DNA of 56,341 nucleotides, taken from positions 1-56,341 of the IMG/VR virus record IMGVR_UViG_3300042453_004839. One strand, given 5' to 3'. The stretch comes from a virus. Under the pieces are notes generated by a model, which made no database searches, had not been told where the DNA came from, and saw only the letters and a list, made by a program, of their open reading frames with translations. The position numbers and the translations under genes were made by a program. Below, in pieces: positions 2,097-28,044 of this stretch; within the stretch, counting starts at the first letter, position 1; every line of letters begins with the position of its first letter.

Positions 2097-2330
2097 TCAA
2101 GAGCCTTTTCCCAGTCCTCCTTTCTTTTTCCAGCTTATACGTTCCGGGCCTTTCTTCTTACGAGCCGAGGCTGAACACATAGACATTGTCGGACGGCACG
2201 CCGGATAGCTGCCTTTGCTGGAGTCCGAGCGGCCGCACGGTCCGCCTGTTTTGCAGTTAACCCAGCCTTTCCCTTTGTTACGCTTGAACCATCCATGGAG
2301 GCCATACTTTTTCTCCAGTTCGAAAGCCAT
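2097..2330 (-). CDS. small Cys/Lys-rich protein, 77 aa (DUF5872-like)
   Basis: The product contains GKGWVNCKTGGPCGR and YPACRPTMSMC, which matches a small family seen in phages and giant viruses (I believe DUF5872, consensus GKGWVDCK...PCGR...YPACRPT). Four cysteines are spaced as if to bind a metal, but no known zinc motif is evident. Its ATG overlaps the stop of the 49-residue gene upstream by one base. It is one of four overlapping micro-genes just downstream of the giant virion gene. Confidence 0.8.
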   Translation of the reverse strand: MAFELEKKYGLHGWFKRNKGKGWVNCKTGGPCGRSDSSKGSYPACRPTMSMCSASARKKKGPERISWKKKGGLGKGS

Positions 2331-2479
2331 TATTTTTTACCCTTCCCCCAGTTGTCCGCTCCGACTTTTCGGCATTTGACCAGCGCTCCGCTGGCGTAGG
2401 CGGAAGGCCACACCCGGTATCTGGCTTTCACCTTCCGAGTGCAGGCATCGTCTGCTTTTTTCTTTCCTATTCCGGCCAT
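2330..2479 (-). CDS. small basic protein, 49 aa
   Basis: A 49-codon frame encodes a product beginning MAGIGKKKADDACTRKVK, followed by RYRVWPSAYASGALVKCRK. The 'WPSAYASGA' core is a signature I recall from tiny hypothetical proteins of phages and nucleocytoplasmic large DNA viruses, with no known function. Stop and next start share a base (TAATG), and its own ATG follows the upstream stop by one base, so translation is coupled on both sides. Two conserved cysteines flank the core. Confidence 0.8.
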   Translation of the reverse strand: MAGIGKKKADDACTRKVKARYRVWPSAYASGALVKCRKVGADNWGKGKK

Positions 2480-2480
2480 G

Positions 2481-2675
2481 TTATTTCTCCAGGATATCCT
2501 CGACCCCGTCCTCGTCCTTGTCCTTAAACGCGCTGGGATCGCGGGTGAAAATTTTCTTTGCCAGAAGATACCGCTCCTCGGCGGTCATCTCCACCCAACC
2601 TCCCCTGCGCTCGCGGGGACGCCAGAACACAAAGATAAGGACAACCCCGGCGAAGAAAAAGACGGGCCATAACAT
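2481..2675 (-). CDS. small membrane protein with an EF-hand-like C-terminus, 64 aa
   Basis: Residues 1-18 form one hydrophobic helix (MLWPVFFFAGVVLIFVFW) followed by Arg-rich RPRERR, giving a single-pass protein with its C-terminus probably in the cytoplasm. The tail ends DKDEDGVEDILEK, whose DxDxDGxxD spacing matches the calcium loop of EF-hand and thrombospondin-type repeats. It overlaps the upstream gene as TGATG. A role at the membrane during entry or lysis is possible but unproven. Confidence 0.65.
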   Translation of the reverse strand: MLWPVFFFAGVVLIFVFWRPRERRGGWVEMTAEERYLLAKKIFTRDPSAFKDKDEDGVEDILEK

Positions 2676-2968
2676 CAGTACTTCCCTTTCCGGCTGGAGG
2701 GACTGGATTGGGTAGAGCCGCCTGGGCCAGCCCAGAGGTGCTTGCAGGCCCAGTAACGGGCGCTCAGCTTGCTCCCCGGATTGGCGCAGTTGTGGCGGGC
2801 CCGGAAGGATTTGCGCGCGGCGGTCGAATAGTTATGACCGTATCCTTTGGCCCCAAAGTGTACGAGTCGTTCTTTGCCGTTCTCGCAGGCTTTGACCATT
2901 TTCTTTTTGCCCGGGCGTGTGCTGGGCCTCGGGCGATTGCAAGGCATGCTGGCTTTTCCTAGTGGCAT
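2675..2968 (-). CDS. basic protein with ARHNC...SARYWACKHLW motif, 97 aa
   Basis: The product starts MPLGKASM and is very rich in Arg/Lys. Residues 38-78 contain FGAKGYGHN, KSFRARHNC and SARYWACKHLW. This arrangement recurs in a small family of hypothetical proteins of phages and giant viruses. Two Cys and several His residues may bind a metal. It is the first micro-gene after the giant virion gene, separated from it by only 12 bases, and very likely co-transcribed with it. Confidence 0.8.
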   Translation of the reverse strand: MPLGKASMPCNRPRPSTRPGKKKMVKACENGKERLVHFGAKGYGHNYSTAARKSFRARHNCANPGSKLSARYWACKHLWAGPGGSTQSSPSSRKGKY

Positions 2969-2980
2969 AAATAAAACCTA

Positions 2981-5900
2981 TCAGGGCATCTGAACCTTCT
3001 CAAGCCCCTGCTTGGAAATACTCTCCAAAACAACCTTCTTGAGCACGGCACGCTTGATGTCGTTGACCTTTGTCTGGGCCAAAATGTAGTCGAACTCGGC
3101 GTTGTCCTTGGCGTTTTCCATGGCCGGAATGTAACGGGCCAGTTCCGCCTGGATCAACGGCCCGGCCTGCTCGACCCAGTCATACTTCTCTTCCCAGGTC
3201 AGATCACGGTTGAGGGCGAGCAGTTCGTAGGGTGACTTGTCGATCGGGATACCCTGCGAAGCCTGCACAGCAAGCTCGAGCATCGCCATTTCCCGGAGTT
3301 CCCCGGCGTTCCATGTGATGACCCGTCCGTGTTTGGCGAACATAGTAATGAGCTTATCGTGGATTGCTTGCTCGGTGGGTTCGTCGGAATTGTCGTAAGC
3401 ATCGGTGTCGACTCCTACGGAGAAGAAACGTTTGGCCACCGGGAGGTTATTAGCTAACTGGCTGGATACGCGACCGCCGAGGTGATCGAGATCCGGCTTG
3501 CCGAACTTGGCCACAACGGGGAAAGACGCGGCTAGGCTCGACATAAACCCGTCCTTGGGCAACCGGCTCCTAGGAGTACCTGTGAGGCCATCGTAAATTG
3601 ATTCCAAGTCACGAACAGTCGGGTAGTACGGGACGACAACGCCGGCCAGGATTCCGCTGAGGGCGGTTCCAAAACTTTGCAGGAGATCATCGGCCCCGGC
3701 GTTCGGGGGAGGTGAAATAAGGCGCATGATGTTCCGCATACCTTGGAGTGCGGTAAGGTCAACAAACCCGATGGCGGTGGCAAGACCGGCTGTAGCCATC
3801 GAGGTGGCCACGGCTTCTGCCGTGGACTTGTCGTCATATCGGAGAGCCTCCGCCATATAACCAGTAGGCAACAACACTCCGGTGAGTCCTGGAGGAAGAG
3901 CCTCAAAGCTGATGAACAAAGGACCGTCCCAAAGCTTTATACCACCCGGAGCGAAAGGTTCACCAATCTTACCAATTTGAAGACAACGTGTTTTCCCACC
4001 CATTTCAAAGTAGGCTTTTCTAGCCTGAGGATCGCGAGGCCCTTTGATGTGTATGAAGAAGAAAGGGTTTTCATCGTCATCATTTAATGCAGCCGCAACC
4101 AAAGAAGCAAGCAATGCCATAGCTGACCAACCAGTAATCATTCTTCCTTGAAGCAAATCATATTCTGGAGTTCCCGGAAGAGGTGGGGGGCGATAATATC
4201 TGGGCGCCTCAGAAGCCAGAATTCTACCAACTCCACGCATCATCCTCCAGTTGGAAATGATCGGAGTAAAAGTTAAAGCGGCGTTTGTAAGATTGGAAGA
4301 CGTCCGCAAGAACTTGAATACCAACTGTGGCATCCAACTGGTACGAGCAAGAGCGTCAATCGACCCGGCAATCGCTCCAACAACTCCGTAAAAGTCATCT
4401 TGATACGAAGCCCTAAGAGCCCTTGTTCTGGCGTTTTCCTCCATCTGTTTAGTAAGCTCGTTCTGCTCCCGGTTTTGCTCCAGAATCTCTTGCTGTCTTA
4501 GAAGCGTCTGGTCGGGGTCTAAGCCAAACGTGGCTGCGTCAATGGCGGCCAAACGACCAGCACGTTCGATGGAGTCTTTAGTATAATTACGTAGAATGTT
4601 TACTTCTTCAATAAACTGTTCCTCGGAAAGAAGAGGATTTCTTTTGGCGACAAGATAAGCAGCTTCAATAATTTCGGCGTTTGGTTTAACTCCCATTTTA
4701 GTGAGTGCATCCCCAGTAGCCATTAAACGTGAAGCAAGAATATACGGTCCGAGAAAAGAGTTAAACGGATAGGCCGGAAGGTCAGCAACTTTTCCGAGTT
4801 TTCCAAAGAATTTTCCAATAAACGGTATATCTTTAAGCGGTAACGGAGGGGCGATAAATTTTGTCGGGAAAAGTTTTGCCAACGATTTTAGGGTTTCTGA
4901 TTTCGGCTCCCAAGCGGCTTGCAGATTAATTTTGATCTCATTTTCGTTTATAGTGATAAATTCTTTTACCGGGTTCGCAACGAAGCTTGGAATCAAGGCC
5001 GACACGTAATCAGTCAAAGCTTCTGCCCAAGCAGGGACTTTTGGTTTGCGGACAATCAGGGTTGCGGGTTCTAATCCGCGTTTACCAGCCCGGCCTGCCT
5101 CGGCTTCACGGAGCATCGCCTCAAAAATGTTCATTCCCCCTGTCTCCTTGAGAACGGCTGAATCGGATGGGAATCTTCCAAACTTCCAGATCTGACTAGC
5201 ATACTTCCGTGCCATTCCTTTGCCTTCAATGTCCTTACCCCACCAGGCATCCTTGAGGGCTTGTCGCGCCATTCTTATCCCTAAAGCTTGGAGCTTTTGC
5301 TCGGGTCCTCCAAAACGTGTTTTTATGGAAGCACTGACCCCGGCAATCCACCCATCAACTACAACACCTTCCACTGCCGACACACAGTTGACCGCCAGGG
5401 TTCCAAGACCTTGCAGATAATTTGCCGTCTGATAAGACACGGCAAGTTCCCCGAGCGACACAGGGGCGATCAGTTTGATGTACTGATAAATTTCCTCAAC
5501 CTTTTCGTTGAGGATTCTGCCCTTCGGATAGCGGTCAAGGGCTTTAACCATCTCTTCAAGCTTCATCCGTTCTTCTATCCCAATCTCAGGCAGGCCGAGA
5601 GTTTGATGGATCTGGGAGTAAAGTTCGTCGTAGCGAAGTACCCCAAGGTTGACGTTTTCGCGCAGACGATCCAAAGCTGTCTTGTACTTCTTTGCCTTCT
5701 TCTCGCTCTTCTTGGCTATTTTCTCCCTCATCTTGTCGAGAGCTTCCTCGCGCTTGGTCTGGATCATTTCGGCCAAACCTTCGCTTAGGTATTTTTTGAC
5801 CTCGTCCTGTTCCCTTGGGCTCAGGTTGGTTCCGTCCAACAAGGCGGCTTTGAGGTCGGCTTCGAACTGGGCAACATTTCCCTGCGACTCACGGATCAGG

Positions 5901-8900
5901 CGATTGATGTTGACTTTGGGACCACCGATTGTTTCCAGGCTGCGGATAACCCGGCTGAGGTTGGAAATCGTGAACGGACGACCCAGGGCTTCCTCGATCA
6001 GAGGCTCCAGACCTTCCACCTGCTCGGGCGTGTATTTCTCATCCAGGGTGGCGCGGACGTCGTTGACAAACTCAAGAACCTCGGGGTACTGCGCGATCAA
6101 TTCCTTGAGCGACTGGGCCGCAGACGGCTTAACCACGTCCTCGATGGGGGCTTCCAATCCGCCTTTTTCCTTGGTCCGTCCGATCATCATCCGGCGTAAC
6201 TTGGAGGCGAATTCTTTCAAGGCATCGCGTTGCTGGGGATTACGAACCCGATCGGCGTATTTGACCAGGGCCTTGGCGGTCGCCGTGGTCAGGGACATCA
6301 GGGTTCCCGGCTCATCGCTTACCTCGACGGGCGATTCGGAATCCAATTCCTTCTCGATCTGCTTGGAACGCCGTTTAGCTTCTCCACGGGTCCTGGGCAA
6401 CTGAACGGCCTCCGGGGTCGGCTTGCGGCGAGTGACCTTGCCGGTTTGTAGGCCGCTAAGCTCGGCCTCTTTTTCCTCGGCGGTTTGGCGAAGCTCCTCA
6501 AGCTTGGCTTTCTGCTCGTCACGGAAGGCGGTCGCGGCCACCGAATAGGCGGCTTCGAAATGATGATTGAACACGCGGAGGACTTCTTCCTTGTTCTTGG
6601 CCTGACTAAAGAAGGGGCTGAGCAACACAACCGTGCGGAGTTTTTCTTTCTGGACGATCTCGGGGTTCTTGGCAAAGCCAAGACGGATCACCTTGAGAAG
6701 AACGTTGCTGAGCTTGTTGATCGTCGAATCATCGAAGCCAAGACCATCGCCCTCACCCTCGCCGGATGTCGGAAGCGACGCCAGGTTGGTGATGTCGCCA
6801 AAGATGTCATTTAACTCGTTGGCCGATTCCGAGTTGATGTAGTTTGCAATTTCGGAATCAAGATCGGCGATCCTGAGCTTCTCGGCTTCCGTCTGCCGGC
6901 GGATCGCCTCGATCTGGCCGAGCACATCGTTGGTCTCCTTGGCGGAGGCAAAGGCGTTGGCGGCAACCTGATCGGCTTCCTGGATCTCGTCGAAGGTTTC
7001 CTGGATGTCAGGAATGAAAGGCTTCATTCGGATCTTGGTCGCCGCTTCCAGCTGACCCTCCAGAAGTTTCAAAAACACCTGAGGGCTTTGGGCGGCAACA
7101 TCCGGCCCCACCCTCCAAAGCTGGACGGCGCGGCCCGGATCAGTTCCGTAAGTCCTGGAAAGTTTTTGGACAATTTCGTCCAAGGTTGCCTGGGCGTCGA
7201 CATCTCCGTCAGCCGCAAGGCGTGTGAAATACGGAACCAGGCTAAACCCGACGGAGGCCCGGCCAGGAAGATCCAGGGGAATGGAGTCGGCAAAGAACTC
7301 ACTGGTGGCTTTAACAATACCCACTTTGCTGATGTAGTTACGGCCTGTCTCCAACTGTTCTTCAACCGGAACCTGGCGATAGACCAGGCTTTCCAGCATC
7401 CGCTCGCGGATTGCCGCGTTGGGGATGTAGGACATCAAAGACGCGATAAGGTTGACTCCTCCAGCACGTGTGCGGAATTTCTCTTCTTTCTCGGGGGTAT
7501 CAGTGTCCGGGAAACTTGCGTAATCAGCGCGGCGTTTGGCAAACTTCTCAAACGTCGGGTCTTCAGCCTCGAGAACTGAGATGAGCTTTTTGGCGTCGGC
7601 TTCGGAGCCTTTGCGGTAAAGCTGGCCTTTGTACCGGATATTCCTCTTGGTAATGGTGCGGAACACAAACATCGAGGTCGCGTGCTTGGGGGAAGCTCCG
7701 GTTGTGTTTCCAGGGTTGATCTCACCAACAGTCACGGTGTAGACGCCCCGCATGCTGGCGGGAGCCGTGGGGTCGGGATCGCGGGGATCTGCATCCTCGG
7801 GGAGCGGGGTGGTAACGGAAACCATCGCTGCCTCGGGGATGACGTCGTCTCCGCGGGTAGCCACCAATGCTTCGGCAATCTCCATGACTTTTCTTTTGAA
7901 CTCGTCGACGTACATGGACTGATTGCTCTCGCCGAGCACATCGGAAGCCGCCTGGTTGAGAAGCGTGGACTCAAACTGGGAAATCTTTTTGGTCACCTCA
8001 TTTGTGACAATGCCGAGATTGAGTTCGCCCGCGTCGATAACCGGGCCGTACATATCCATCCGCACAGGTCGTCCGAGAAACTCGTTGGTCTTGCCAGAAA
8101 GAACATTGTCCAGCTGGCGCACAACCTTGAGGTCGTTGCGGTCGAGAATGTTGCTGGGGCGGTTTAAATTAATCGGTTTTCCGTCATCTGGGAAAGAAGC
8201 CCGGGCGCTCACGCCCTGGTACTTTATAATCTGGTCCAAAAGCGTCTGCTTGTTGGCGAGTTCCGCTTTCTTTGTGTCCTTTTCATCGATGGTGGCCCCG
8301 GCTTCACCGAGCATCTTCTCAACCTTGCGGAAATCCATTTCCCCGATCTCCATCTGAAGCTCGATGCTCGACATCTTGAGATACGGCAAAAAGCTCTGCG
8401 GGATACTAGGCTTGGCCTTTTTCTTCGGCACCTCGATCTTTTTGCTCTCACGGGCCCTGGCTTCTTCCAACTGTTTGATCAGATCCCGTTGCTGGCGCAT
8501 CAAAGATTTTCTATCGGTATCTTCATCGGGGGAAAGATCATCTCTCTGCAAAGGCGCAAGTTGTTCGCGGATGTTTTCGATCTGTAACTCGATCTCGTTG
8601 GACGGAGAGTCCTTGTCTACCTTGATCTTAGGGGCGCGAAACTGTGCGACGATCAGGTCTTCCACCTTGATACGGTCAAACCGTTTGACCACCTCCTCCG
8701 CGTCCTTCATGTAGGAAGCGGGTAGGACCGCACTCTTGGGCCACATCTGGAACACCGAGACGGCCTGATCCATCCATTTCGACAGAGTCTTTTTGGGTTC
8801 AATATCCAGAAGCCTGAGTAATGTGCTCAATTTTTCATCGAGAATTTGTTTTTGTGCCGGAGTCAAATTGAGCGCCTGTTCGGTAATCGATCCTTTGTAC

Positions 8901-11900
8901 GCAAGTTCCAAAAGTATTCTGGTAAGCTCTGCCCCCACCCGAACTGGATTAGATGCAAAAGTACTTTTAACCAACTTGGCTTCCCGGGTTGAAAGCTCGT
9001 TTAGGATTGTATAAATATCGGCAACCAAGTCTGCCCCCTTTGGGCCTACGGAATTACCAACGATTGAATACCACATCTGAACATCTTTGATTTCTTCACG
9101 CTTGCGACGGGTAATCGTGACGTGATCTCTCTCGTGTGAAATAACCGTTTTCAAAAACTCATCGTAGGCTTTGGGTTTTAATGTTGCTTTACGGCGGGTG
9201 GCGATCCATTGCGGATCGATGATAATTTCATCGGTAAGATTCGAAGCGCCAATGTCGTGATAAGGGGCACGATTGGTAAAACCGTACTTGAAGAAATATT
9301 CTAGTTTTTCTTTTTTGTTGGTAACAAAGGTAAACACGCCTTTGTCGTAGGCTTTGCCAAACACCCGCTTGAAATCCGCGTCGATCTCTTTGAGAACCTT
9401 GAGTTGCTCGGGCGTGGCGGTGCTGGGAATGTAGACATCCTCGGGCGCATCGGACCTGGCCTTGAGCTTGGGGTCGAGGACCGGAACCTCGATGGCCGGA
9501 GCCTTGATCGGGAACAGCGGTTCGGTTCTTTTCTTCTTGGCCGTCTCTTTGGCCTTCTTTATCTTTTGGCCTTTTTCCTTGGCGGTTAAAGGAGTTGCGC
9601 GGGCGGGCTTGGCCGCAGGAGCCTTGGCTTCCGCCACGACCTTTTCCACTTCGGCCAGTGCGCCGAAGTCGATAAAGGCTTCCTGTGCCCGGAGACTGCG
9701 GAGCAGACTTTCTTCCGCGTAACGGTCGGCTCCGTGGTTGGTTAAAAGGAAAAGGACATCAAGAGGGCTACGTGTGTTCAGCCGGTAACCGCGCATGACG
9801 GTTTGCAGAAAATCTCCGGCCTTGAGCGGGAGACCGAGAAAGATAAATGTACGGGGTTGATCGCCCTGCTTGTCGTCCAACTCGCCCCCAACTCCGGCGC
9901 TGGCCCGTGTCGCAATAACAACATCCGCTTCTCCCTTTTGAAATTGAATTGCGGACAAAGCTTTTTCGTCCTTATCGTCCCCGTAAATCTTGACGATCTT
10001 GGTTCCCGGTCTTTCAGCGAGAAGTGAAGCTTCCAACATGGAAGCGGTGGCCCTGGCGTTCTCGCCCGAGAACATCTTGCTTTTGTTAATATAGTCCACC
10101 CAAATGACAACTCTGCGTTTGCGTTTGTCCAGTTCCTTGACGGTGGCCTTGACGGCGTCGGGAATCTTGTAGCGCTCCAAAATAAACTTTTGCGCCCCCA
10201 ACAAGGCTTCTCCCTTTTCGGCATCGACAATGGTCGCGTTGCCGAAACTTCCGGCAACCGCTTTGAGTTCTTCTTTAACCTCGGGGGTAAGCTTTACCGG
10301 AAGAGCCTTGAAGTTAACCCCACCCTTAAGGGAAGTCGCCTCGGACGAGTAGTCACCACGCTCGGCCCATTTTGCAACCGCAATGCTGAGGCGTCTGTCG
10401 GCTTCAATCTTATCGACACCGATCTGGGCATCAATCGCCTTGAGGGTTTTCCAGTCCCGCTTATCAAAGGCTTTTGCCTGCTTGTCCCGAAGATCGGAAA
10501 GCTGTTTCTCGTCGAACGCGACATCCGAAGGAGGTATGGGAAGATATTCTTCTGCCCGTCCGCCACGGAGCTTTTGCAATTTATAGCCGTGACGTAAAAT
10601 AAATTCTTCGATATCGACTTCCGTCTTGCCGCCGTAAAGTTCCTTGCCTTCAAACATTTCACGGGCGTAAGACCCCAGATGCAGGATGGAGTCAACCGGT
10701 GTTCCGGTGGCCTTGATGACCTGGCCGGTTTTGGTACGGGCATTTATGAGATCAATCAGCTTGGCCCATTTTCCATTCTCCAGGTTTCTTGCTGTCTGGA
10801 ACTCGTCCCAGATCACCAAAGTATCCTGATCCACAATCTTAGAAAGTTGTGCGAGATGTCTGCTTTCGTAGGTGGTTACGATAATTTTGTCGAAGGTGGC
10901 TTCGGTAAGAGGCTTGTAAACACCACCGCGCAACTCGATTGGTATGCCTAATTTGTTAGCGTCATCCTGAATAACATGACGGATTAAGCCCTTTCTCCAA
11001 TCCGGGCGTATAACTTCTGACGGAGCAACAATAATTACTTTTTTCTTTTCCTTTATGGCAAGATCTCCGACAGACAGAAAGATCCTAGTTTTTCCACGCC
11101 CAGGTCCGAGAGCCAAGACTTTGGAGGCGGATGGCACGTTTTCTAAAGCCCACTTGGTCTGGACGACATGGAATTTTTGCCGCTCCTTGAGCTCTTTAAC
11201 AATTTGAGGACCGAGGCGACGCAGGATCTTGTCGGTCGTCTTTTTGCCGTAATCAAAACCTTCCTGCTGGGCCGTTACGATGTAAGGTTTTTCTGGTACT
11301 GGCTTGCTAGAAACCGGTTCATATCCTCGTTCCTCGCGCTCCGGTCCAGGATCTGGATCGTGTTTTCCAAGCTTTGTTGGGTCACCTGGGATTTTCCGGT
11401 ACTCGGTTCCTCGGGCAATTGCCCCAACACGTTTGTTGACAGCCCGTTCAAGAGCTCGGTTCGCAAGTCTAGATTTGCCTTCCTTGGTTCGAAGGTCAGC
11501 GGCTCGAATGGGCTCTGCGCGTTTACGTTCTCCGATGTTTGCACGATTTACTGCTCCTTTGATTTGGTTGTCCAGGGCGAGAAGTCTGGCCCGGTACTTA
11601 TAGGCACCGTCAATTTTAGCCTGTAGGTCCTTGCCCTGGAGGGTGGTTTCATATTCTGCTTTGGCTTCGTTTATCTGTTTTTGATAGAAATTGAAGGAGT
11701 CCTGATCCAGCACCAGATCCTTTTTCTTACCGGGTGTTGCGGCGCTGATAAGGTTGATGCCTTCAAGCTGTTCGCGGATCGTCTCCAACCGCTGGTTTTG
11801 CTCCTCAAACACCGGCTTCCCGCGTTCATTGTCGCTAAGAACATTGAGTGCACGCAAAACCGCTTCCGGGGGATTGAGCGCCCGTAATTCTTTTACAAAC

Positions 11901-14900
11901 CCGAGCTTGGCCAATTCAGTCCAGTTAAGAACCGAGGACAATCTTTCCAGATCACCCTTGTTGCGTTCGTTCTGGATTTTGTTGATGAGGTTGGCCAGAG
12001 GCAGGCGTTCTTGCGGCAAAAAGAGACCGGACTCGTCCATCTTGCGGAACTTCGAGAACGCAGGGCGAATCTCCTTCTCTGAAATAAGTCCGTCGGATTC
12101 CTGATTGACTTCTTTGGCCGCTTCAACATTTGTCTTTTCGGCGTACCTTGCATTAGCTTCGTCCAGCTTTTCCTGGACTTTTTCCTCGAAAGCAGAGGCT
12201 ATGCGGTTAAGTTCGGACTTGAATTTTTTCGCGTCCAGTTTAAATGACTTTGCGTCTTTCGAGAGTTTATTCTTGTCGATCTCTCCCGGATTGGCCAAGT
12301 AATATTCAAATAGTTTTTTATCCGCCGATGTTTTAAGCCCGGCTTCAAACTCCGTCGTGGCGGCCTTAACCGCATCGATTGCAATCTGCCTTGTGGCTTC
12401 CGGTATGTTTTCCTGACTCTGTTCCAGCTCAACCTGTTTTTCGGCTTCTGAAATGTCCTGGTCAATTACCCCGGCCCGGATTGCAACCGGATTCCCGGGA
12501 AGATCGATTGCAGCTTCGGAAACAGACCCAACCTTATACTTGGCCCGCGTCAAAGCTTTTCGGCGAAGATCCCTCATGTTGGAGAAGAAAATATTCTCCA
12601 AGTCCACGGCGGCTCCGCTTTTGCCCTCCCGAACCATGAGCGTAAACTCGTCGATCGACGCTGAGATTGCTTTATCAAAGCCACCGGCTTTTTGGATGAT
12701 CTCCCACTGTGGGTTGCCAAGAGAGTTTCTGGCCAGGCGATTGATCTGCTCCATGGCCGCGGCCACGGGGCCCATCACAGGCACATTATTTTCGTCAATG
12801 GCCCCAATACCTTTGAGGTAATCAAGCTCAGATTCACTCAGTTTCCCGCCTGTACCAAAAACCTGCTGGATTGCTGCCGGATCGTCCTCTAAGAAAGGAT
12901 TCGGTTTGCTCTTTTGATACCTCTCATAAAGAGGCTCTCCCTCAATCGCAATTGGGAGATTAAAGTATTTTTCTTTTTCAAGAGTCTTGGGGAGCACTTT
13001 TTTACGCTTTGTACGGACGGTCTCAGTCTCGGTCTCCTGGTCAACTTCAGCAGCAATTTCATCCAAACGCTGTTGGACGCCACGCTTTACGATTTCTTCC
13101 TGGGTACTTGCAAGTGCGGCTTCTTTCTCCTGGGCCGCGGCAAGTTCCTGCTGGGCCTGCGGAAGTTGAAGGGTCGGCACCTCCAAAACCTTTCGCTTAA
13201 GCTGTTCGACTTCTTTCTTGGTCTTTTTCTTGGAGATTTCGGCCTCGGCCATCGCCTTCGGTTTCAGCAGTCTTTCTTTCTCAAGATCACGCTCTGCTTG
13301 TTTCTCAGGCTGGGTAACTCCAATCTGGGCTTGGATCGCATCCAGCCCAGCCTTTGTTCTACCCTCAACCCCATAAATTTGGTCGCGAACTTCTTCCTGT
13401 CTTTCAAAGGAAAGACCGCTGTCCTCAAGGTCGGCTTCCAGCGCCTGCCGTCTGGAGTCAAGCGGATCGGTCTTTGCAAACACTCCAAACCCACGTCCAG
13501 ACTTGTCGCGAATCCCATCGATCTCGTAGGCGTTGGAACCTTCGGTTTCAACACCGGAAAGTCTTCCTTCGTCGTCTAGATAATCTAAAATCCTTTTGTT
13601 CTCAACGGTAAGAGGAAACTGAATGACGTCTTGCCCGGATTTCTTCGCGGCTTCCAGCGCGGGGATAATCTGATTTATGACGGTCTCTTCAGCCGCCTGC
13701 TCAAGACTGATCGTCTCTTTCGGTGCAGGGAGGGCAAGCTGGCCCGGAGTTACGGGAGCTACTGGTGTGACCGCCGCACCTTCCGGCGGCAGAACCTCCA
13801 CGGGAACTGTTTTGGCCTCCTCGACTTTCTTCTTTACGAGAGAATCGAGAGCCGGCTTAGATGCCTTGTCGACCTGCTCCTGGGCTACCTTGGCGGTTTG
13901 AGGAAGTACGCTTTTATCAACCGAGTACTTAAGATTCACTGCGTCGAACAATGCCTTGGCCTCGTCGGTCGGGAGGGTGTTACGGAAGTTTTTGAGTTGC
14001 TGATCGCGCTGGCGGAAGGTGAAGCGAGTGTCCTGTTTGACCGAGGAAACCGTATCCTCAAACGTTTTGGTCAGATCCTTGCGGGCAAAATCCAAAACCT
14101 CGTCAACCTGGGCCTGGGTAGCCCTGCGGCCTCCGATCGAGGAAACCCCGAACATACCGAGGGACACGCCCAAAGAAGTTGCAAGATCCTCACCAAAACC
14201 TTCCTGTGGATTTTGTCCGGCAAAGATCCGGTCGATCTGGCTGGAAATGGTTTCACCGATCGTTGAGCCGGTGACAAATGCGGCGTTCTTGTACAACGGA
14301 GCCAGTTTTGGCACGGCGGAAGCCAGTGCTGTCCCGGCGATCTTGGCTCCCATTGCCCTTGTGACAAGGGCGGCTTCAGCGGCCTCGCCGAGTTTTTCGG
14401 AAACACCAAGTCCCGCAATCTTTTCAAAGGAGTTTAAAAGATTCTGCTCCCAGCTTAACGGACGAACTTCCTCTGCGGCTTCTCCGCCGCCGTAAAGAGT
14501 GTAGGTTCCAATCCGGGAAAGACGGTTGGGAACGCGGATAAGTTTGCCACCGACATTGATCGGGGTTCCTAGGGCACGAGCGGCCCCGGCACCGATACCG
14601 GCAAACCCGGCCACACTTCCGGTGGCCGATCCGGCGACCGACGGAAGGTAATAGTCTTCCATGATCGTGTCGTTGATCTTTTGAATGAGGGCACTTCTGC
14701 GTCCGACCTGATCGGGATCCTTTTCATCGTCGATAAAGATATTGTCGGTGGTGACAAGAGGAAGGGCGCTCCCAGCCTTGGCAAAGAAAACCCGGAGCGA
14801 GGATTCAGTTACGGGCTTTTCACGGTCGGCGCGGAGTTGTTTGAGATAATCCTCGGCTTCGGCTAGGTTCATCCCTGTGTTGTACTGGGTGACAAAACCT

Positions 14901-15562
14901 TCCAGGCCCTTTGTCCTGACAATCATCTTGGGCTTCTGGCCTTCCGGGGCAATAGATTCGCCACTGTCGAGCTTGTCGGTGTAAATGTCGCCAAATTCCA
15001 GGGCTTCCGCCGCCAACTTGGGATCGGTAATCTGCCCGATCAGATTTGTGGAGGCGGCTGAAAGTCCGGCAGCTTCCGCTTCTTCTTTATTTCTCCCAAC
15101 AGCCAAATTGAAATAGTTGGTAAGCACAGAACCAACGCCACCCAAAAAGGCTTTGGTCGCGCCCAAGACATCCCCGTCATCAACGGCTTTCCTGAGATTC
15201 TGGGCGGCATTGATGGGGCCGGGTTCGGCCAGAAAGTAGTCGTAGGCTTTCTTGTACCGATCTTTCAAGTCCCCGCTCTGGATGGTGGTAAGGATCGATC
15301 CCAGAGCGCTGACGCCGACCGGATCGTCCCGAAGCTTTAAAAGATTGGAGGCAAAGTCTTCGTAACCCGTTTGCTCCTGATCCAGGGCCAAAGCCTGGTT
15401 GAACAAATCCTCGTTGGAAAATGCCGGCTCGACAGGAGCTTCTGCCTCAACCGGCTCAGCCATCAAAGTGCTGGCTTGGTTAAAAAGATCTTCTTGGGAG
15501 AATGTTTCTTGGGGAAGCGTCTCTTGTTCCGGCACTTCCGCTTTAAAAGGATCTTCCGCCAT
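2981..15562 (-). CDS. giant polyvalent virion protein with SF2 helicase and zincin-like domains, 4193 aa
   Basis: This single 12.6-kb frame is the largest gene by far. A glycine/alanine-rich hydrophobic stretch lies near residues 307-335, and charged coiled-coil-like regions follow at about 770-850. A full SF2 helicase module spans about 1455-1990: motif I GPGRGKT at 1486-1492, DEFQ at 1586-1589, TGTP at 1619-1622, and MRGYRLNTRS near 1925 as motif VI. A zinc-metalloprotease-like HERDH (HExxH) is at 2143-2147. Further hydrophobic segments lie near 3370-3410 and 3809-3826. The layout resembles the 'large polyvalent proteins' of phages and conjugative elements, such as DarB-like anti-restriction proteins, which enter the cell with the DNA. 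Position next to internal virion-like genes fits packaging in the particle and ejection. I see no RNA polymerase motifs, so it is not an N4-type vRNAP. Start is ATG after CAGGGTT. Confidence 0.85.
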   Translation of the reverse strand: MAEDPFKAEVPEQETLPQETFSQEDLFNQASTLMAEPVEAEAPVEPAFSNEDLFNQALALDQEQTGYEDFASNLLKLRDDPVGVSALGSILTTIQSGDLKDRYKKAYDYFLAEPGPINAAQNLRKAVDDGDVLGATKAFLGGVGSVLTNYFNLAVGRNKEEAEAAGLSAASTNLIGQITDPKLAAEALEFGDIYTDKLDSGESIAPEGQKPKMIVRTKGLEGFVTQYNTGMNLAEAEDYLKQLRADREKPVTESSLRVFFAKAGSALPLVTTDNIFIDDEKDPDQVGRRSALIQKINDTIMEDYYLPSVAGSATGSVAGFAGIGAGAARALGTPINVGGKLIRVPNRLSRIGTYTLYGGGEAAEEVRPLSWEQNLLNSFEKIAGLGVSEKLGEAAEAALVTRAMGAKIAGTALASAVPKLAPLYKNAAFVTGSTIGETISSQIDRIFAGQNPQEGFGEDLATSLGVSLGMFGVSSIGGRRATQAQVDEVLDFARKDLTKTFEDTVSSVKQDTRFTFRQRDQQLKNFRNTLPTDEAKALFDAVNLKYSVDKSVLPQTAKVAQEQVDKASKPALDSLVKKKVEEAKTVPVEVLPPEGAAVTPVAPVTPGQLALPAPKETISLEQAAEETVINQIIPALEAAKKSGQDVIQFPLTVENKRILDYLDDEGRLSGVETEGSNAYEIDGIRDKSGRGFGVFAKTDPLDSRRQALEADLEDSGLSFERQEEVRDQIYGVEGRTKAGLDAIQAQIGVTQPEKQAERDLEKERLLKPKAMAEAEISKKKTKKEVEQLKRKVLEVPTLQLPQAQQELAAAQEKEAALASTQEEIVKRGVQQRLDEIAAEVDQETETETVRTKRKKVLPKTLEKEKYFNLPIAIEGEPLYERYQKSKPNPFLEDDPAAIQQVFGTGGKLSESELDYLKGIGAIDENNVPVMGPVAAAMEQINRLARNSLGNPQWEIIQKAGGFDKAISASIDEFTLMVREGKSGAAVDLENIFFSNMRDLRRKALTRAKYKVGSVSEAAIDLPGNPVAIRAGVIDQDISEAEKQVELEQSQENIPEATRQIAIDAVKAATTEFEAGLKTSADKKLFEYYLANPGEIDKNKLSKDAKSFKLDAKKFKSELNRIASAFEEKVQEKLDEANARYAEKTNVEAAKEVNQESDGLISEKEIRPAFSKFRKMDESGLFLPQERLPLANLINKIQNERNKGDLERLSSVLNWTELAKLGFVKELRALNPPEAVLRALNVLSDNERGKPVFEEQNQRLETIREQLEGINLISAATPGKKKDLVLDQDSFNFYQKQINEAKAEYETTLQGKDLQAKIDGAYKYRARLLALDNQIKGAVNRANIGERKRAEPIRAADLRTKEGKSRLANRALERAVNKRVGAIARGTEYRKIPGDPTKLGKHDPDPGPEREERGYEPVSSKPVPEKPYIVTAQQEGFDYGKKTTDKILRRLGPQIVKELKERQKFHVVQTKWALENVPSASKVLALGPGRGKTRIFLSVGDLAIKEKKKVIIVAPSEVIRPDWRKGLIRHVIQDDANKLGIPIELRGGVYKPLTEATFDKIIVTTYESRHLAQLSKIVDQDTLVIWDEFQTARNLENGKWAKLIDLINARTKTGQVIKATGTPVDSILHLGSYAREMFEGKELYGGKTEVDIEEFILRHGYKLQKLRGGRAEEYLPIPPSDVAFDEKQLSDLRDKQAKAFDKRDWKTLKAIDAQIGVDKIEADRRLSIAVAKWAERGDYSSEATSLKGGVNFKALPVKLTPEVKEELKAVAGSFGNATIVDAEKGEALLGAQKFILERYKIPDAVKATVKELDKRKRRVVIWVDYINKSKMFSGENARATASMLEASLLAERPGTKIVKIYGDDKDEKALSAIQFQKGEADVVIATRASAGVGGELDDKQGDQPRTFIFLGLPLKAGDFLQTVMRGYRLNTRSPLDVLFLLTNHGADRYAEESLLRSLRAQEAFIDFGALAEVEKVVAEAKAPAAKPARATPLTAKEKGQKIKKAKETAKKKRTEPLFPIKAPAIEVPVLDPKLKARSDAPEDVYIPSTATPEQLKVLKEIDADFKRVFGKAYDKGVFTFVTNKKEKLEYFFKYGFTNRAPYHDIGASNLTDEIIIDPQWIATRRKATLKPKAYDEFLKTVISHERDHVTITRRKREEIKDVQMWYSIVGNSVGPKGADLVADIYTILNELSTREAKLVKSTFASNPVRVGAELTRILLELAYKGSITEQALNLTPAQKQILDEKLSTLLRLLDIEPKKTLSKWMDQAVSVFQMWPKSAVLPASYMKDAEEVVKRFDRIKVEDLIVAQFRAPKIKVDKDSPSNEIELQIENIREQLAPLQRDDLSPDEDTDRKSLMRQQRDLIKQLEEARARESKKIEVPKKKAKPSIPQSFLPYLKMSSIELQMEIGEMDFRKVEKMLGEAGATIDEKDTKKAELANKQTLLDQIIKYQGVSARASFPDDGKPINLNRPSNILDRNDLKVVRQLDNVLSGKTNEFLGRPVRMDMYGPVIDAGELNLGIVTNEVTKKISQFESTLLNQAASDVLGESNQSMYVDEFKRKVMEIAEALVATRGDDVIPEAAMVSVTTPLPEDADPRDPDPTAPASMRGVYTVTVGEINPGNTTGASPKHATSMFVFRTITKRNIRYKGQLYRKGSEADAKKLISVLEAEDPTFEKFAKRRADYASFPDTDTPEKEEKFRTRAGGVNLIASLMSYIPNAAIRERMLESLVYRQVPVEEQLETGRNYISKVGIVKATSEFFADSIPLDLPGRASVGFSLVPYFTRLAADGDVDAQATLDEIVQKLSRTYGTDPGRAVQLWRVGPDVAAQSPQVFLKLLEGQLEAATKIRMKPFIPDIQETFDEIQEADQVAANAFASAKETNDVLGQIEAIRRQTEAEKLRIADLDSEIANYINSESANELNDIFGDITNLASLPTSGEGEGDGLGFDDSTINKLSNVLLKVIRLGFAKNPEIVQKEKLRTVVLLSPFFSQAKNKEEVLRVFNHHFEAAYSVAATAFRDEQKAKLEELRQTAEEKEAELSGLQTGKVTRRKPTPEAVQLPRTRGEAKRRSKQIEKELDSESPVEVSDEPGTLMSLTTATAKALVKYADRVRNPQQRDALKEFASKLRRMMIGRTKEKGGLEAPIEDVVKPSAAQSLKELIAQYPEVLEFVNDVRATLDEKYTPEQVEGLEPLIEEALGRPFTISNLSRVIRSLETIGGPKVNINRLIRESQGNVAQFEADLKAALLDGTNLSPREQDEVKKYLSEGLAEMIQTKREEALDKMREKIAKKSEKKAKKYKTALDRLRENVNLGVLRYDELYSQIHQTLGLPEIGIEERMKLEEMVKALDRYPKGRILNEKVEEIYQYIKLIAPVSLGELAVSYQTANYLQGLGTLAVNCVSAVEGVVVDGWIAGVSASIKTRFGGPEQKLQALGIRMARQALKDAWWGKDIEGKGMARKYASQIWKFGRFPSDSAVLKETGGMNIFEAMLREAEAGRAGKRGLEPATLIVRKPKVPAWAEALTDYVSALIPSFVANPVKEFITINENEIKINLQAAWEPKSETLKSLAKLFPTKFIAPPLPLKDIPFIGKFFGKLGKVADLPAYPFNSFLGPYILASRLMATGDALTKMGVKPNAEIIEAAYLVAKRNPLLSEEQFIEEVNILRNYTKDSIERAGRLAAIDAATFGLDPDQTLLRQQEILEQNREQNELTKQMEENARTRALRASYQDDFYGVVGAIAGSIDALARTSWMPQLVFKFLRTSSNLTNAALTFTPIISNWRMMRGVGRILASEAPRYYRPPPLPGTPEYDLLQGRMITGWSAMALLASLVAAALNDDDENPFFFIHIKGPRDPQARKAYFEMGGKTRCLQIGKIGEPFAPGGIKLWDGPLFISFEALPPGLTGVLLPTGYMAEALRYDDKSTAEAVATSMATAGLATAIGFVDLTALQGMRNIMRLISPPPNAGADDLLQSFGTALSGILAGVVVPYYPTVRDLESIYDGLTGTPRSRLPKDGFMSSLAASFPVVAKFGKPDLDHLGGRVSSQLANNLPVAKRFFSVGVDTDAYDNSDEPTEQAIHDKLITMFAKHGRVITWNAGELREMAMLELAVQASQGIPIDKSPYELLALNRDLTWEEKYDWVEQAGPLIQAELARYIPAMENAKDNAEFDYILAQTKVNDIKRAVLKKVVLESISKQGLEKVQMP
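9600..11200 (-). other. SF2 helicase module inside the giant protein
   Basis: This part of the giant gene encodes two RecA-like lobes in the right order. The N-lobe has VLALGPGRGKTR (motif I), VIIVAP (Ia), IIVTTYES, LVIWDEFQ (II) and KATGTPVD (III). The C-lobe has RVVIWVDYINKS (IV), ADVVIATRASAGVG (V) and QTVMRGYRLNTRS (VI). The GxGxGKT, DExQ and TGTP forms are closest to Snf2/strawberry-notch-type and restriction-helicase-type SF2 enzymes. All ATP-binding residues look intact. Confidence 0.8.
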
Positions 15563-15603
15563 AACCCTGTCTATTTAAGCGGAACCGTATTACGAGGTCA
15601 ACT

Positions 15604-17283
15604 TTATTCCGCTTCGGTACCAGGAAAACCGGCAGGAGTCATGGCTTCCTCCACCATATTGGGTGTCCGGGGCGAGAAGGTTGCCGCCTGCCGTTGACCC
15701 ATCCGGCTCACGATACGGTTGCGAAGGGCGGTGAGGTTTATTTTGGTGGGCTGTCCGTCCTTCACATAGGTCTTGTTTCCGGCCTTGATTTGCCGGTCAA
15801 CCTCGTCCAGAAGGGCCTGATTTTTGCGGTAATCGGTTGTGTCGGTCGGGGTGGGAGGAGTGGGCGAAGGTTGCTGGGGGGACGGGGCAACAGGGGCAGC
15901 CGTCGGGGCTCCAGCTTGAGCCACGCCAAGCAACGCTACATTTGAAAAATTCACTTTAGGTGCTGTGGTTGCCTGCGGTTGAACCCCTCCGGGGGTCGTG
16001 GCCGTGGCCTTTTCCCCGCGAGCAAGCTTCATAATGTCGACAATCTTAGAAAGCTGATCCTCTTCTTCCACCTTAGCGACACCGGAAGTCATCATTTTAT
16101 CCCTAAACTTGTTGATGCGATCCTTGATTTCTTCGGAAATGTTATTGTTTTCGTCAAGAATTCCTGACCGGAAAGAAATAGAGCTGATATCAGGAGCGCG
16201 AAATTTTGGCGATACTGAACCGTCCTCTTGTTTAATCGTGTAGTTTGGGTTAAGAATCTGGGCGTATTCATATCCGGCCAGCTCTTTGGCAATATTCTTT
16301 AGATCATTTTCAGCCCTAAGTTTATTCTCCCTAAGCATCAAATCGTCCTGCTTTTGGATATATTCCTCAGTTCCACGTTCGCTCTCGGGTGCGGAGGCAA
16401 GAACATTAAATTCTTCCTGGATTTCCGGAGAAAGTTCTTTTGCCGTACCGATCGCCAAGAAAGATTCTCTGGCGTCCAGCTTTTTTAAATCTTTCAATTC
16501 TCTTTGTCGGAGATCCAAGGAAGAAAGTACACTGTTGATGGCATCGCGGGAACTCGGGTCCTTGATGGAGGACAAGAGATTGGCGGCTTTGGTGCGGGTA
16601 TCGGCGAGCCTTTGGTTTCGGTCGGCGTATGAAAAATTCTGAAGATTGGAGATTAAATCCCCGGATTCCGTGAAAAAGTTTTCCATTTGTGGGCGGAGAA
16701 GCGCGAGCTTCTGCATCTCATTGGCCTTTTCAATCCCGGAAGCTATCTGGCTGGCCTGATTGATCATCGCGCCATAGTCCATTACTTCCGCGGTATCTTT
16801 TTGGGCTTCGGCATACCATTTTTGAAGACCGGCGTAATCGTTATTGTTCAAAAGATTGCCGAACTCGGCCAAACGCACGTTCTGGTTCTTTTTGCTGAGA
16901 CGTTCCAAAAGGTCATTTTGAATGACTCTTTCTTCCTTGGCGACATCAAGGTTGTATTTTCTTTCGTTAAGATCTCTGGCCAAAGCGTCCTTGTAAAGCT
17001 CGTATTGCTGATTCTTGGCATCGTAGTCCAGTTTATCCTTGGCTTGCTGGGCTTTGTTGGCCTCCTGCAAATAATTAAACTCAAGCTGGCGTTCATTTAG
17101 ACCCGCCTGCATGGCGGCAGTATCCCGGCTGGCGTTAAGCTGGGCGTACTGAAGAGCCCTGTTCGCGTTCTGTTGCTGTTCCTGTTGAAACAGCTGTTGC
17201 TTTTTGAGGTTGTCTTCCTGTAAGTCGCTCAGGATTCCGCGAACCTGGCTGACGTAATCGGGAGCGTTGGGGGTAATTGCCAT
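15604..17283 (-). CDS. putative internal virion protein, coiled coil, 559 aa
   Basis: The first 130 residues are Gln/Asn-rich helix with heptad-like spacing (for example QQLFQQEQQQNANRALQYAQ), and long charged helices continue to about residue 420. A Pro/Ala/Thr-rich linker (about 440-490) precedes a short basic C-terminal domain. There is no enzymatic motif. Such long Gln-rich helical proteins next to the giant protein are typical of podovirus internal core or tail-associated virion proteins. The gene lies between the giant gene and a 349-residue virion-like gene with three-base spacing, so co-expression is likely. Family not recognised. Confidence 0.75.
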   Translation of the reverse strand: MAITPNAPDYVSQVRGILSDLQEDNLKKQQLFQQEQQQNANRALQYAQLNASRDTAAMQAGLNERQLEFNYLQEANKAQQAKDKLDYDAKNQQYELYKDALARDLNERKYNLDVAKEERVIQNDLLERLSKKNQNVRLAEFGNLLNNNDYAGLQKWYAEAQKDTAEVMDYGAMINQASQIASGIEKANEMQKLALLRPQMENFFTESGDLISNLQNFSYADRNQRLADTRTKAANLLSSIKDPSSRDAINSVLSSLDLRQRELKDLKKLDARESFLAIGTAKELSPEIQEEFNVLASAPESERGTEEYIQKQDDLMLRENKLRAENDLKNIAKELAGYEYAQILNPNYTIKQEDGSVSPKFRAPDISSISFRSGILDENNNISEEIKDRINKFRDKMMTSGVAKVEEEDQLSKIVDIMKLARGEKATATTPGGVQPQATTAPKVNFSNVALLGVAQAGAPTAAPVAPSPQQPSPTPPTPTDTTDYRKNQALLDEVDRQIKAGNKTYVKDGQPTKINLTALRNRIVSRMGQRQAATFSPRTPNMVEEAMTPAGFPGTEAE

Positions 17284-17286
17284 AAA

Positions 17287-18336
17287 TTAAGCTCTAGATA
17301 CTTGTTGTTGCGGGGCATATCCAACCCAATAATTATTAGGGTCTCGATAGCTTCTGGGATCGGCGGGTCGGGATGCTGAATATTGCCCGGGGGTGAAGGT
17401 TTGGAAACCTCGACCCAGAACGTATTGACCCGGCAGAGGCTGGCTTTGCCAGGCATTCAAGAGGTTCGCGTTGGCAATTTGTTGATTGTACTGGGCCTGG
17501 CTCGTCAACGTGTCAAACACCTGTTGCGGACTTACCATTAGGTTGGCGACTGAAACCGGAGACGCCAGTTGCATGGCTTGCTGGGTAAGTCCAACGCTTC
17601 TTCCGAGAAGATCCGCTCCAGTTTGCTGGAGATTAAGGGCAGTAAGCCCGAAATCTCTCGCCGTCAATCCACGCCCCAAACCTCCTCCGGCAAGGCCAGT
17701 TTGTAGGTTTGTGGCGGCAGTCGATCTTGCGATTCCTTGTGCCACCGAAGAGGGAATTCGTGCGCCCAGATAATCATAAGCCAGGTTGCCCAAAGCAGCC
17801 AAACTGGGCCGGAATTGCGGAAGATAAGACTCAAAAGCCTGCCGTGTCGGGGCGTTGTATCTTTCGGCGAGACCGGCCAACTGTTCGGGCTGGTTAACTT
17901 CAGAAAGTCGTTTGGTAAAGTCTTCATACGGAACTTGTAATTCAGCCAATTTAGGAGATTCTCCACGACTGAATTCAAGGGGGCCAGCCGATGGGGCTAC
18001 CGGAGTTGGCATATGCCCACCCCACTTAACTTTGGAAGTGGACGCACGGGTGGGTTTGTATTTTGCAGCTTGTGTGGAAGGTTGCATCGAGGTAAGCGTT
18101 CCAGGTGAAGTCGACTCGTAAATTGGATTACCTTGCGGCCCAAATCCGGAGATTCGAAAAGCTCCGCCAGGAGTAACACTTCCGACATCAGGTTTCGAAA
18201 ACAAACCACGGGTGGACGACGGGGCCGCGGGAGCAGGAGAACCTATGCTGGAAACAAATGCCCCAAAAGAAGGAGGTTTGGGGGCAAATTGTTTGAGCAC
18301 GTCTGTTAGGCTTGAGGCTGAGCTAAATAGCGACAT
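17287..18336 (-). CDS. putative virion protein, 349 aa
   Basis: The N-terminal 115 residues are Ser/Pro/Gly-rich and probably disordered. The middle (about 135-270) is helical with a conserved-looking segment ARDFGLTALNLQQTGADLLG. The tail is Tyr/Gln/Pro-rich (NYWVGYAPQQQ). No catalytic motif is seen. Its place between the neck-like protein and the coiled-coil protein suggests an internal or tail-associated virion component. It is separated from its neighbours by three bases on each side, which implies one transcript. Confidence 0.7.
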   Translation of the reverse strand: MSLFSSASSLTDVLKQFAPKPPSFGAFVSSIGSPAPAAPSSTRGLFSKPDVGSVTPGGAFRISGFGPQGNPIYESTSPGTLTSMQPSTQAAKYKPTRASTSKVKWGGHMPTPVAPSAGPLEFSRGESPKLAELQVPYEDFTKRLSEVNQPEQLAGLAERYNAPTRQAFESYLPQFRPSLAALGNLAYDYLGARIPSSVAQGIARSTAATNLQTGLAGGGLGRGLTARDFGLTALNLQQTGADLLGRSVGLTQQAMQLASPVSVANLMVSPQQVFDTLTSQAQYNQQIANANLLNAWQSQPLPGQYVLGRGFQTFTPGQYSASRPADPRSYRDPNNYWVGYAPQQQVSRA

Positions 18337-27088: not shown

Positions 27089-27505
27089 TCAAGCTTTCAG
27101 GACTGCCCAATTGTCCCTCCACTTGGAATTTGGGTCAAGATAAACGGATTTGGTTTTCGGTAACTTTCCGGTGGGGATTATGAAAATCGCATCTTCCACG
27201 CTATGGTAAAATACAAGGACATCGCAGTCACTACGGTTATAAGTCCTCTTAACGCCGTGATTGGCCGAGGGTTTGGGCCTTACCGTGCCAAAACCAGGAC
27301 CCTTTACGGCCAGGAACTTAAACTTATTTCTGCGGTGATCCTCACTACCCGAGGTGCATTTGACCTGGACGCGGCTCAACTTCCCCTTCCAGTCCACAAC
27401 CAGGTCGTAGCCGTCGTCATAAATAGGCAGGCTGACCAAAAACCCGTGTTCCAGGAGTTTGGCCGAAACCTTCTGTACGCCTATGGCACCTAGTCGAATA
27501 CTCAT
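27089..27505 (-). CDS. PD-(D/E)XK endonuclease-like protein, 138 aa
   Basis: The sequence shows the small PD-(D/E)XK fold. An N-terminal helix (GAIGVQKVSAKLLEHGF) is followed by DGYDLVVDW and VQVKC, giving the D-x(n)-QxK catalytic signature of intron-type and resolvase-like nucleases. Residues SDCDVLVFY fit a later core strand. I chose the ATG at 27505 because it overlaps the endolysin stop as ATGA and has AGAGG at the right distance; a GTG at 27511 is possible. The nuclease sits at the end of the lysis cassette. It may act on host DNA or during packaging. Confidence 0.7.
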   Translation of the reverse strand: MSIRLGAIGVQKVSAKLLEHGFLVSLPIYDDGYDLVVDWKGKLSRVQVKCTSGSEDHRRNKFKFLAVKGPGFGTVRPKPSANHGVKRTYNRSDCDVLVFYHSVEDAIFIIPTGKLPKTKSVYLDPNSKWRDNWAVLKA

Positions 27506-28044
27506 AACCACCTCTTGGCAAGCATTGTATCAAGGGGCCGACGCTTGCGATAGACCCCATCCCCCTCCCGGCTCCCGTCGTCATTGGTGTTGCCTTCGAT
27601 GGTCACCACCATCTTGCCTTCTAGCTTTTCCACCAAACCCGTGTGAGCCACGCGGCCAAGGTTTGAAAAATAAATCCCAAAGGCATCGGACGGGCCCGGC
27701 CTCGTTCCGCGGCCTCGGTTCCAGTCCGGAGCTTTAACGAAATCGGGGCTCCAAGCAGAACGCGGGTAGGGGTTCTTTTCTTCGCCGAACGCTTCATCGC
27801 CTACATATACCACCCATGCCGCGCACCAGGGAGCCTTGCTCCCGGCTAGTCCGACCGATGCGAGGATTTTGTCCACCATGGGCCCGGCGTTTCGCCCGAC
27901 CTCTCGCCATCCGATGGTTCCGCGAGCCACGCGAATAACTTCCGCAACTCTTCCTTCTCGCGTAGCTGGGACTCCCTCAGTAGCTCGGGCTCCGGAACCC
28001 AACACAAGTAAAGATGCCATAACCAGCGCATAAATCACCCGCAT
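27502..28044 (-). CDS. secreted endolysin, CHAP/NlpC-like amidase, 180 aa
   Basis: Residues 1-21 form a signal peptide or signal-anchor (MRVIYALVMASLLVLGSGARA). The domain that follows has REVGRNAGPMVDKIL, then APWCAAWVVYV with the likely catalytic Cys74, HTGLVEKLEG with His134, and IEGNTN at 149-154. This is the Cys-His-polar pattern of CHAP-type peptidoglycan hydrolases seen in phage lysins. It should cut the peptidoglycan at lysis; the export signal suggests Sec-dependent delivery that needs only a pinholin-like partner. It overlaps the holin gene by ten bases. Confidence 0.75.
   Translation of the reverse strand: MRVIYALVMASLLVLGSGARATEGVPATREGRVAEVIRVARGTIGWREVGRNAGPMVDKILASVGLAGSKAPWCAAWVVYVGDEAFGEEKNPYPRSAWSPDFVKAPDWNRGRGTRPGPSDAFGIYFSNLGRVAHTGLVEKLEGKMVVTIEGNTNDDGSREGDGVYRKRRPLDTMLAKRWL

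Follow-up and report, generated by a model that had tools for sequence, protein, structure and literature searches.

Background

How short-tailed phages power genome entry once capsid pressure has fallen is a long-standing question and, to our knowledge, only the transcription-driven pulling of T7 is well worked out. In that phage, the head releases the ejection proteins first and the DNA afterwards; gp16-C, which is found at the inner membrane and in the cytoplasm and binds DNA, handles the first ~850 bp, and RNA polymerase then pulls in the rest (PMC8954989). T7-like marine phages encode an internal virion protein D of 1,230–1,610 aa (e.g. HTVC011P gp34, Syn5 gp45, and P-SSP7 gp16; phrog_6651) that carries no motor, together with a T7-type RNA polymerase. 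For P-SSP7 gp16, the name was assigned "by synteny and size".

Multi-domain giants that are ejected, some with a helicase among their domains, are already known. DarB-like giants of Bcep22-like and PBC5-like podoviruses (JC1 gp69, 4,515 aa; BcepIL02 gp70, 4,667 aa; Atu_ph08 gp21, 4,877 aa) carry both a methylase and a helicase (PMC6630229), and mass spectrometry has detected JC1 gp69 in purified virions (PMC9144972). In other podoviruses, the giant ejection protein brings a wall hydrolase of its own (PMC6630229). The polyvalent proteins surveyed by Iyer et al. (2017, PMC5512222) are likewise multi-domain and encoded in late-gene contexts; they include zincin peptidases, and the SF2 helicase recorded there comes after an adenine methylase with LPD36. 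Lastly, the vRNAP of coliphage N4 (gp50, ~3,500 aa) is a giant enzyme that is ejected through the tail and joins the DNA ejectosome (PMC12633501).

Here we analyze a 56,341-base viral contig (hereafter the window, i.e. the whole stretch of DNA under analysis) that encodes a giant protein of 4,193 aa. What sets it apart is a methylase-free SNF2-type motor on an internal-virion-protein-D-type C-terminus, encoded in an apparently exchanged cassette by phages of a group in which no T7-type polymerase could be detected. The giant resembles the polyvalent proteins of Iyer et al. in its late-gene context and in combining a helicase with a possible zincin-like domain, but differs from them in both the lack of a methylase beside the motor and the type of C-terminus. 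The N4 vRNAP would be a functional parallel by analogy, with an RNA polymerase rather than an SF2 motor as its cargo. The original prediction saw a domain order that seemed to fit no described family; the whole chain is indeed unmatched, although the idea of a giant ejected polyvalent protein had already been described for P1 DarB, the Bcep22-like phages, and N4 vRNAP.

The giant gene and its relatives

The giant gene is a single open frame of 4,193 codons at positions 2981–15562 on the minus strand, and is intact within the window. Full-length homologues of 3,737–4,238 aa are present on ten other, independent IMG/VR phage contigs, giving 11 complete sequences with that of the window; the uninterrupted frame noted in the original prediction is therefore a real gene, and neither a chance frame nor an assembly artefact. 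One of the homologues runs across the junction of its contig's two ends, which bear a terminal repeat of 121 bases. Identity between the giant and the homologues compared is 27–64%.

Searches with the single giant protein, by tblastn against cultured phages and by peptide scans, returned no relatives, and for this reason contigs were sought with the DNA polymerase of the phage instead. Giants were then found on the contigs so recovered, and further relatives were reached with profile scans. No relatives turned up in scans of bacterial and archaeal genomes, and the phage group was found only in metagenomic contigs. The window protein by itself had no match in Pfam, with domain signal coming from its homologues, and the PDB gave no match either to the giant (phmmer) or to profiles of its N-terminal, 2560–3290, and C-terminal segments. 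Most of the chain (residues 1–1430 and 2250–3250) is without assignable function. This includes a conserved N-terminal region without a known fold (residues 1–560; 13883–15562, minus strand) that is found only in this phage group.

At 56 kb, the window is probably an incomplete genome. A gene of ~780 aa with no Pfam match is conserved in the 67–70 kb relatives (L121:2208–4553 in G002, and equivalents) and absent from the window.

Homology of the C-terminal region to internal virion protein D

The conserved C-terminal region of the giant (residues 3250–4193; 2984–5815, minus strand) aligns with five internal virion protein D proteins with a probability of 98.4 and an E-value of 7.7e-15 over 436 columns (hhalign), the homologous part lying at residues ~3353–3995 (3578–5506). 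The same comparison gives no match for the N-terminal, motor, and 2500–3300 segments. The giant has ~440 C-terminal columns in common with this class of proteins, in which its first 3,250 residues are without a counterpart. Blocks shared in the alignment lie around PFxRTPxN and GPxDPxxR, and single-sequence matches to this region include Syn5 gp45 (E 3e-4) and P-SSP7 gp16 (E 9e-4).

A bridging homologue of 1,353 aa (L147), found by profile scan, has a C-terminal region homologous to that of the giant and matches phrog_6651, annotated as internal virion protein, at E 1.4e-45. It has tblastn matches in 55–58 phage records, and matches the internal virion protein D of Pelagibacter, Roseobacter, Synechococcus, Prochlorococcus, and Desulfovibrio phages. 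The AF2 model of the giant C-terminus is weak (mean pLDDT 58); with this model, Foldseek finds nothing in the PDB, and its BFVD matches, at E 1e-8 to 1e-4, are to entries for internal virion proteins (E 6.6e-8) and for large polyvalent proteins. Neither the giant nor the profile built on the marine internal virion proteins D gave a signal against T7 gp16. These profile comparisons make the C-terminal quarter of the giant a homologue of internal virion protein D as it occurs in T7-like phages (HTVC011P, Syn5, and P-SSP7). The suggestion that the giant is an ejected, internal-virion-type protein is consequently backed by homology, through the bridging protein, and no longer by gene position alone.

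A more distant relative of 2,975 aa (G007, L132:3506–12433) retains the C-terminal region (hhalign E 1e-17) and lacks the motor, as does L147. This points to the C-terminal part as a constant chassis on which the rest of the chain varies. The middle of G007 matches DUF6302 (E 1.1e-8) and, below threshold, Sigma70 region 2 (E 1.3e-4), neither of which is present in L147; this stretch may be an alternative cargo in place of the motor. Elsewhere in the chain, apparent identity between G007 and the giants is alignment noise.

A SWI2/SNF2-type motor within the giant

Residues 1455–1985 (9608–11200, minus strand) form a predicted SWI2/SNF2-type SF2 motor. Motif I, or Walker A, is GPGRGKT (residues 1486–1492; 11087–11107), with GKT present in 11 of 11 giant homologues; motif II, or Walker B, is DEFQ (residues 1586–1589; 10796–10807), with DE in all eleven; and motif III is TGTP (residues 1619–1622; 10697–10708), with GTP again in every sequence. 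Motif VI, QTVMRGYR (residues 1920–1927; 9782–9805), falls within QTVMRGYRLNTRS at residues 1920–1932, and its glutamine and both arginines are invariant. Motifs I, II, III, V, and VI occur in this order in each of the 11 giants. The SF2 helicase motifs that had been noted within the chain are thus confirmed, and the giant matches the phrog_16 DNA helicase at E 9e-11. Pfam matches in the giant homologues are to ResIII, AAA_34, and Helicase_C_4, the latter two being Strawberry-notch-type models.

The AF2 model of residues 1430–2260 has a mean pLDDT of 69, with most of the motor at 70–90, and contains two RecA-like lobes; a model without them had been named beforehand as a finding that would count against the original prediction. 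Foldseek matches of the motor model in the PDB are, at the top, nearly all SWI2/SNF2 enzymes (E down to 5e-14), including ISWI, RapA, and the double-strand-DNA translocases Rad54, CSB, and Chd1 (E ~1e-13). The two-lobed fold and motifs I–VI are in common with SWI2/SNF2 ATPases (Rad54, CSB/Rad26, ISWI, Chd1, and RapA) and with the stand-alone phage SF2 helicases phrog_16 and phrog_62; the giant motor differs from both in sitting inside a giant virion-type chain, and has ~12–16% identity to solved structures.

One such stand-alone helicase, of 434 aa (phrog_62), is encoded in the replication module of the same phage (40764–42068, plus strand), and is a homologue of the embedded motor (hhalign probability 98.5, E 3.3e-15, 388 columns). 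Against stand-alone phage helicases, including those of distant relatives, the motor profile reaches hmmsearch E-values of 1e-9 down to 3e-18. The dN/dS over the motor is 0.041 in a close pair of genomes (G002/G004), the lowest of six segments of the giant, which indicates purifying selection on the motor. Judged by its motifs, dN/dS, and the two-lobed predicted fold, the motor is intact, constrained, and SWI2/SNF2-like.

Genome context and the variable cassette

The late module runs on the minus strand from the terminase through tail to ejection genes and is closed by the giant, with the replication module on the opposite strand. The giant is the last large gene of the internal-protein cluster, as internal virion protein D is the last gene of that cluster in T7-like marine phages. 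Just upstream is a 559-aa gene (15604–17283, minus strand) that is equally variable, occupies a gp15-like position, and stands beside the giant in all relatives read. Further upstream is a variable 349-aa gene at the outer edge of the cassette (17287–18336, minus strand); no homology to gp14/gp15-type proteins was found for either neighbor. Directly downstream of the giant, a 97-aa gene (2675–2968, minus strand) is 83–94% identical even where the giant differs, and by this measure is a sharp conserved edge of the cassette.

The tabulated core genes are 72–99% identical between genomes, while the giant and its 559-aa neighbor are 24–64% identical in all pairs except G002/G004 (giant 93%, neighbor 43%). 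For example, the replication proteins of G011 are 95–99% identical to those of G002, G003, and G004, and the giants only 33–36%; between G011 and the window, the giant is 64% identical and the replication proteins 78–91%. The cassette at 2981–18336 (giant, 559-aa, and 349-aa genes) is in this sense mosaic, with G011 pairing with the window for the giant and with G002, G003, and G004 for the core. A giant identity of ~35% amid replication genes at 95–99% implies a gene that is exchanged or very fast-evolving; this discordance between giant and core appears best explained by exchange, and suggests a module that has moved between phages or is under strong host-specific pressure. Between G002 and G004, synonymous divergence is 0.09 at the positions that correspond to residues 1990–2500 of the window protein (L136 and G004) and 0.44–0.57 elsewhere in the giant gene, a drop that suggests recent recombination within the gene.

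The window phage also encodes an endolysin (phrog_9589; 27502–28044) in the middle of the tail module, in contrast to the podoviruses mentioned above, whose giant ejection proteins bring the wall hydrolase.

A proposed role in genome entry

A search for a T7-type RNA polymerase (RNA_pol family) gave no match in 13 phage records that belong to this group or lie close to it, 3 of which (G002, G003, and G004) have the terminal repeats of a circular assembly. The same search recovered the polymerase in five of five T7-like positive controls (T7, P-SSP7, Syn5, HTVC011P, and ProddE), and matched none of 14 cellular controls. The missing polymerase is a correlation, and many phages that lack such an enzyme use other routes of entry.

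We favor, with a probability of roughly 60%, a reading in which the giant is packaged in the virion as an ejection protein and delivers an SNF2-type translocase to the entering genome. Specifically, among the ejection proteins of a short-tailed phage it would be the largest; it would be carried inside the capsid and discharged into the cell before the genome. The internal-virion-protein-D-like C-terminus would help form the trans-envelope or inner-membrane end of the DNA conduit, and the central SWI2/SNF2-type motor would sit at the cytoplasmic mouth, translocating on the entering double-stranded genome and using ATP to draw it in and/or to clear bound host proteins. We infer packaging, ejection ahead of the genome, and the placement of the translocase from homology and analogy, as we do ATPase activity, action on phage DNA, and direction of movement. 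In this phage group, the giant may take over the DNA pulling that T7 leaves to its RNA polymerase. The fuller form of this idea, in which the virion carries its own genome-internalization engine—i.e. an SNF2-type translocase fused to an ejection channel protein that replaces the RNA-polymerase-driven pulling of T7-like relatives—is one we hold as tentative and somewhat doubtful. The motor may pull the DNA, clear proteins from it, or protect it; pulling would fit the missing polymerase, and protection would fit the rapid variation. A 460-kDa chain would have to pass through a narrow channel, which speaks against the favored reading, although N4 offers a precedent by analogy. Also weighing against it are the way in which P-SSP7 gp16 got its name, the missing signal to T7 gp16, the weak C-terminal model, and the large share of the chain to which no function can be assigned. 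With a constrained DNA motor joined to an ejection-type protein in phages that have no detectable T7-type polymerase, the idea of motor-driven entry can be tested directly.

The alternative that survives best, though we consider it unlikely, is a DarB-like antirestriction or anti-defence role, in which a virion-delivered motor shields or remodels the entering DNA against restriction or other nucleases and does no pulling. Giant podoviral DarB-like proteins are virion-associated (PMC9144972), share with the window giant their size and an SF2/SNF2 motor inside the chain, and occupy the matching end of the late module, next to a virion protein of ~530 aa; in addition, the giant varies sharply among near-identical cores, as expected of a gene in conflict with the host. 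However, the giant lacks a [SDN]PP[YFWH] methylase motif, and no N6_Mtase was found in the 13 phage records, with controls positive. The motor is also not closely related to that of the DarB-like giants: its profile has hmmsearch E-values above 1 against P1 DarB and BcepIL02 gp70, vs 1e-9 to 1e-18 against stand-alone phage helicases, and hhalign gives no more than E 2.5e-4 and 5.7e-5 for the two proteins. All other segments of the giant have no detectable homology to either. We therefore rejected membership of the DarB family, as the giant is without the methylase and helicase dyad and its helicase is not homologous above hmmsearch noise; the close likeness to DarB that had been put forward is not borne out.

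It is improbable that the motor acts after ejection on host targets, as RapA does, i.e. on RNA polymerase or DNA-bound proteins in an early takeover of the cell or its transcription. The Foldseek matches include E. coli RapA bound to RNA polymerase (E 3.5e-11), but this ranks below many DNA-bound SNF2 enzymes. The Sigma70 match in the middle of the helicase-less G007 hints at a transcription-related cargo, yet it is below the Pfam cut-off and present in that one sequence. The missing phage RNA polymerase also speaks for this alternative. Even less probable is a function of the giant within the capsid or its assembly (e.g. organization of the packaged DNA or core assembly), with the motor unused in the cell: internal virion proteins are core components and the giant belongs to a late operon, but an ATPase whose motifs are kept in 11 of 11 sequences would hardly serve a purpose inside a closed capsid that receives no ATP. 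Finally, homology between the motor and the replication-module helicase could also be read as the mark of a protein of replication or recombination that works in the cytoplasm, is absent from the virion, and shares only an LPD-type C-terminal region, a view we find hardly credible given the late-module position on the strand opposite to the replication genes, C-terminal homology that is specific to internal virion proteins, and the retention of this region in the helicase-less G007 and L147.

Hydrophobic segments, a possible zincin-like domain, and accessory genes

Hydrophobic, membrane-like segments had been expected near both ends of the giant. This expectation is borne out only weakly: with a Kyte-Doolittle threshold of 1.6 over 19 residues, a single segment of the window protein passes (MITGWSAMALLASLVAAAL, residues 3808–3826; 4085–4141, minus strand). 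In relatives, such segments lie near residues 309–460, where some of these giants have Gly/Ala-rich hydrophobic stretches, or near 3803–3921, and two relatives have none.

Residues 2020–2250 (8813–9505, minus strand) form a possible zincin-like domain, as suggested by a [H/E]ExxH motif (HERDH in the window, 9122–9136) and by the AF2 model, in which strands are followed by a helix bearing the motif. The motif is HExxH in 3 and EExxH in 8 of the 11 giants, with the catalytic glutamate and last histidine invariant throughout. Weak Pfam matches are to DUF922 (E 0.0045) and BSP (E 0.02), both of which we take to belong to the zincin clan. Because the first histidine is lost in 8 of 11 sequences, an active metallopeptidase is only possible.

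Two further genes of the window have annotated matches: 50747–51433 matches phrog_9683, a protease (E 9.4e-10) and candidate for virion-protein processing, and 53444–54037 is an auxiliary gene, present in some relatives only, that matches the ferredoxin phrog_3704 (E 1.7e-30).
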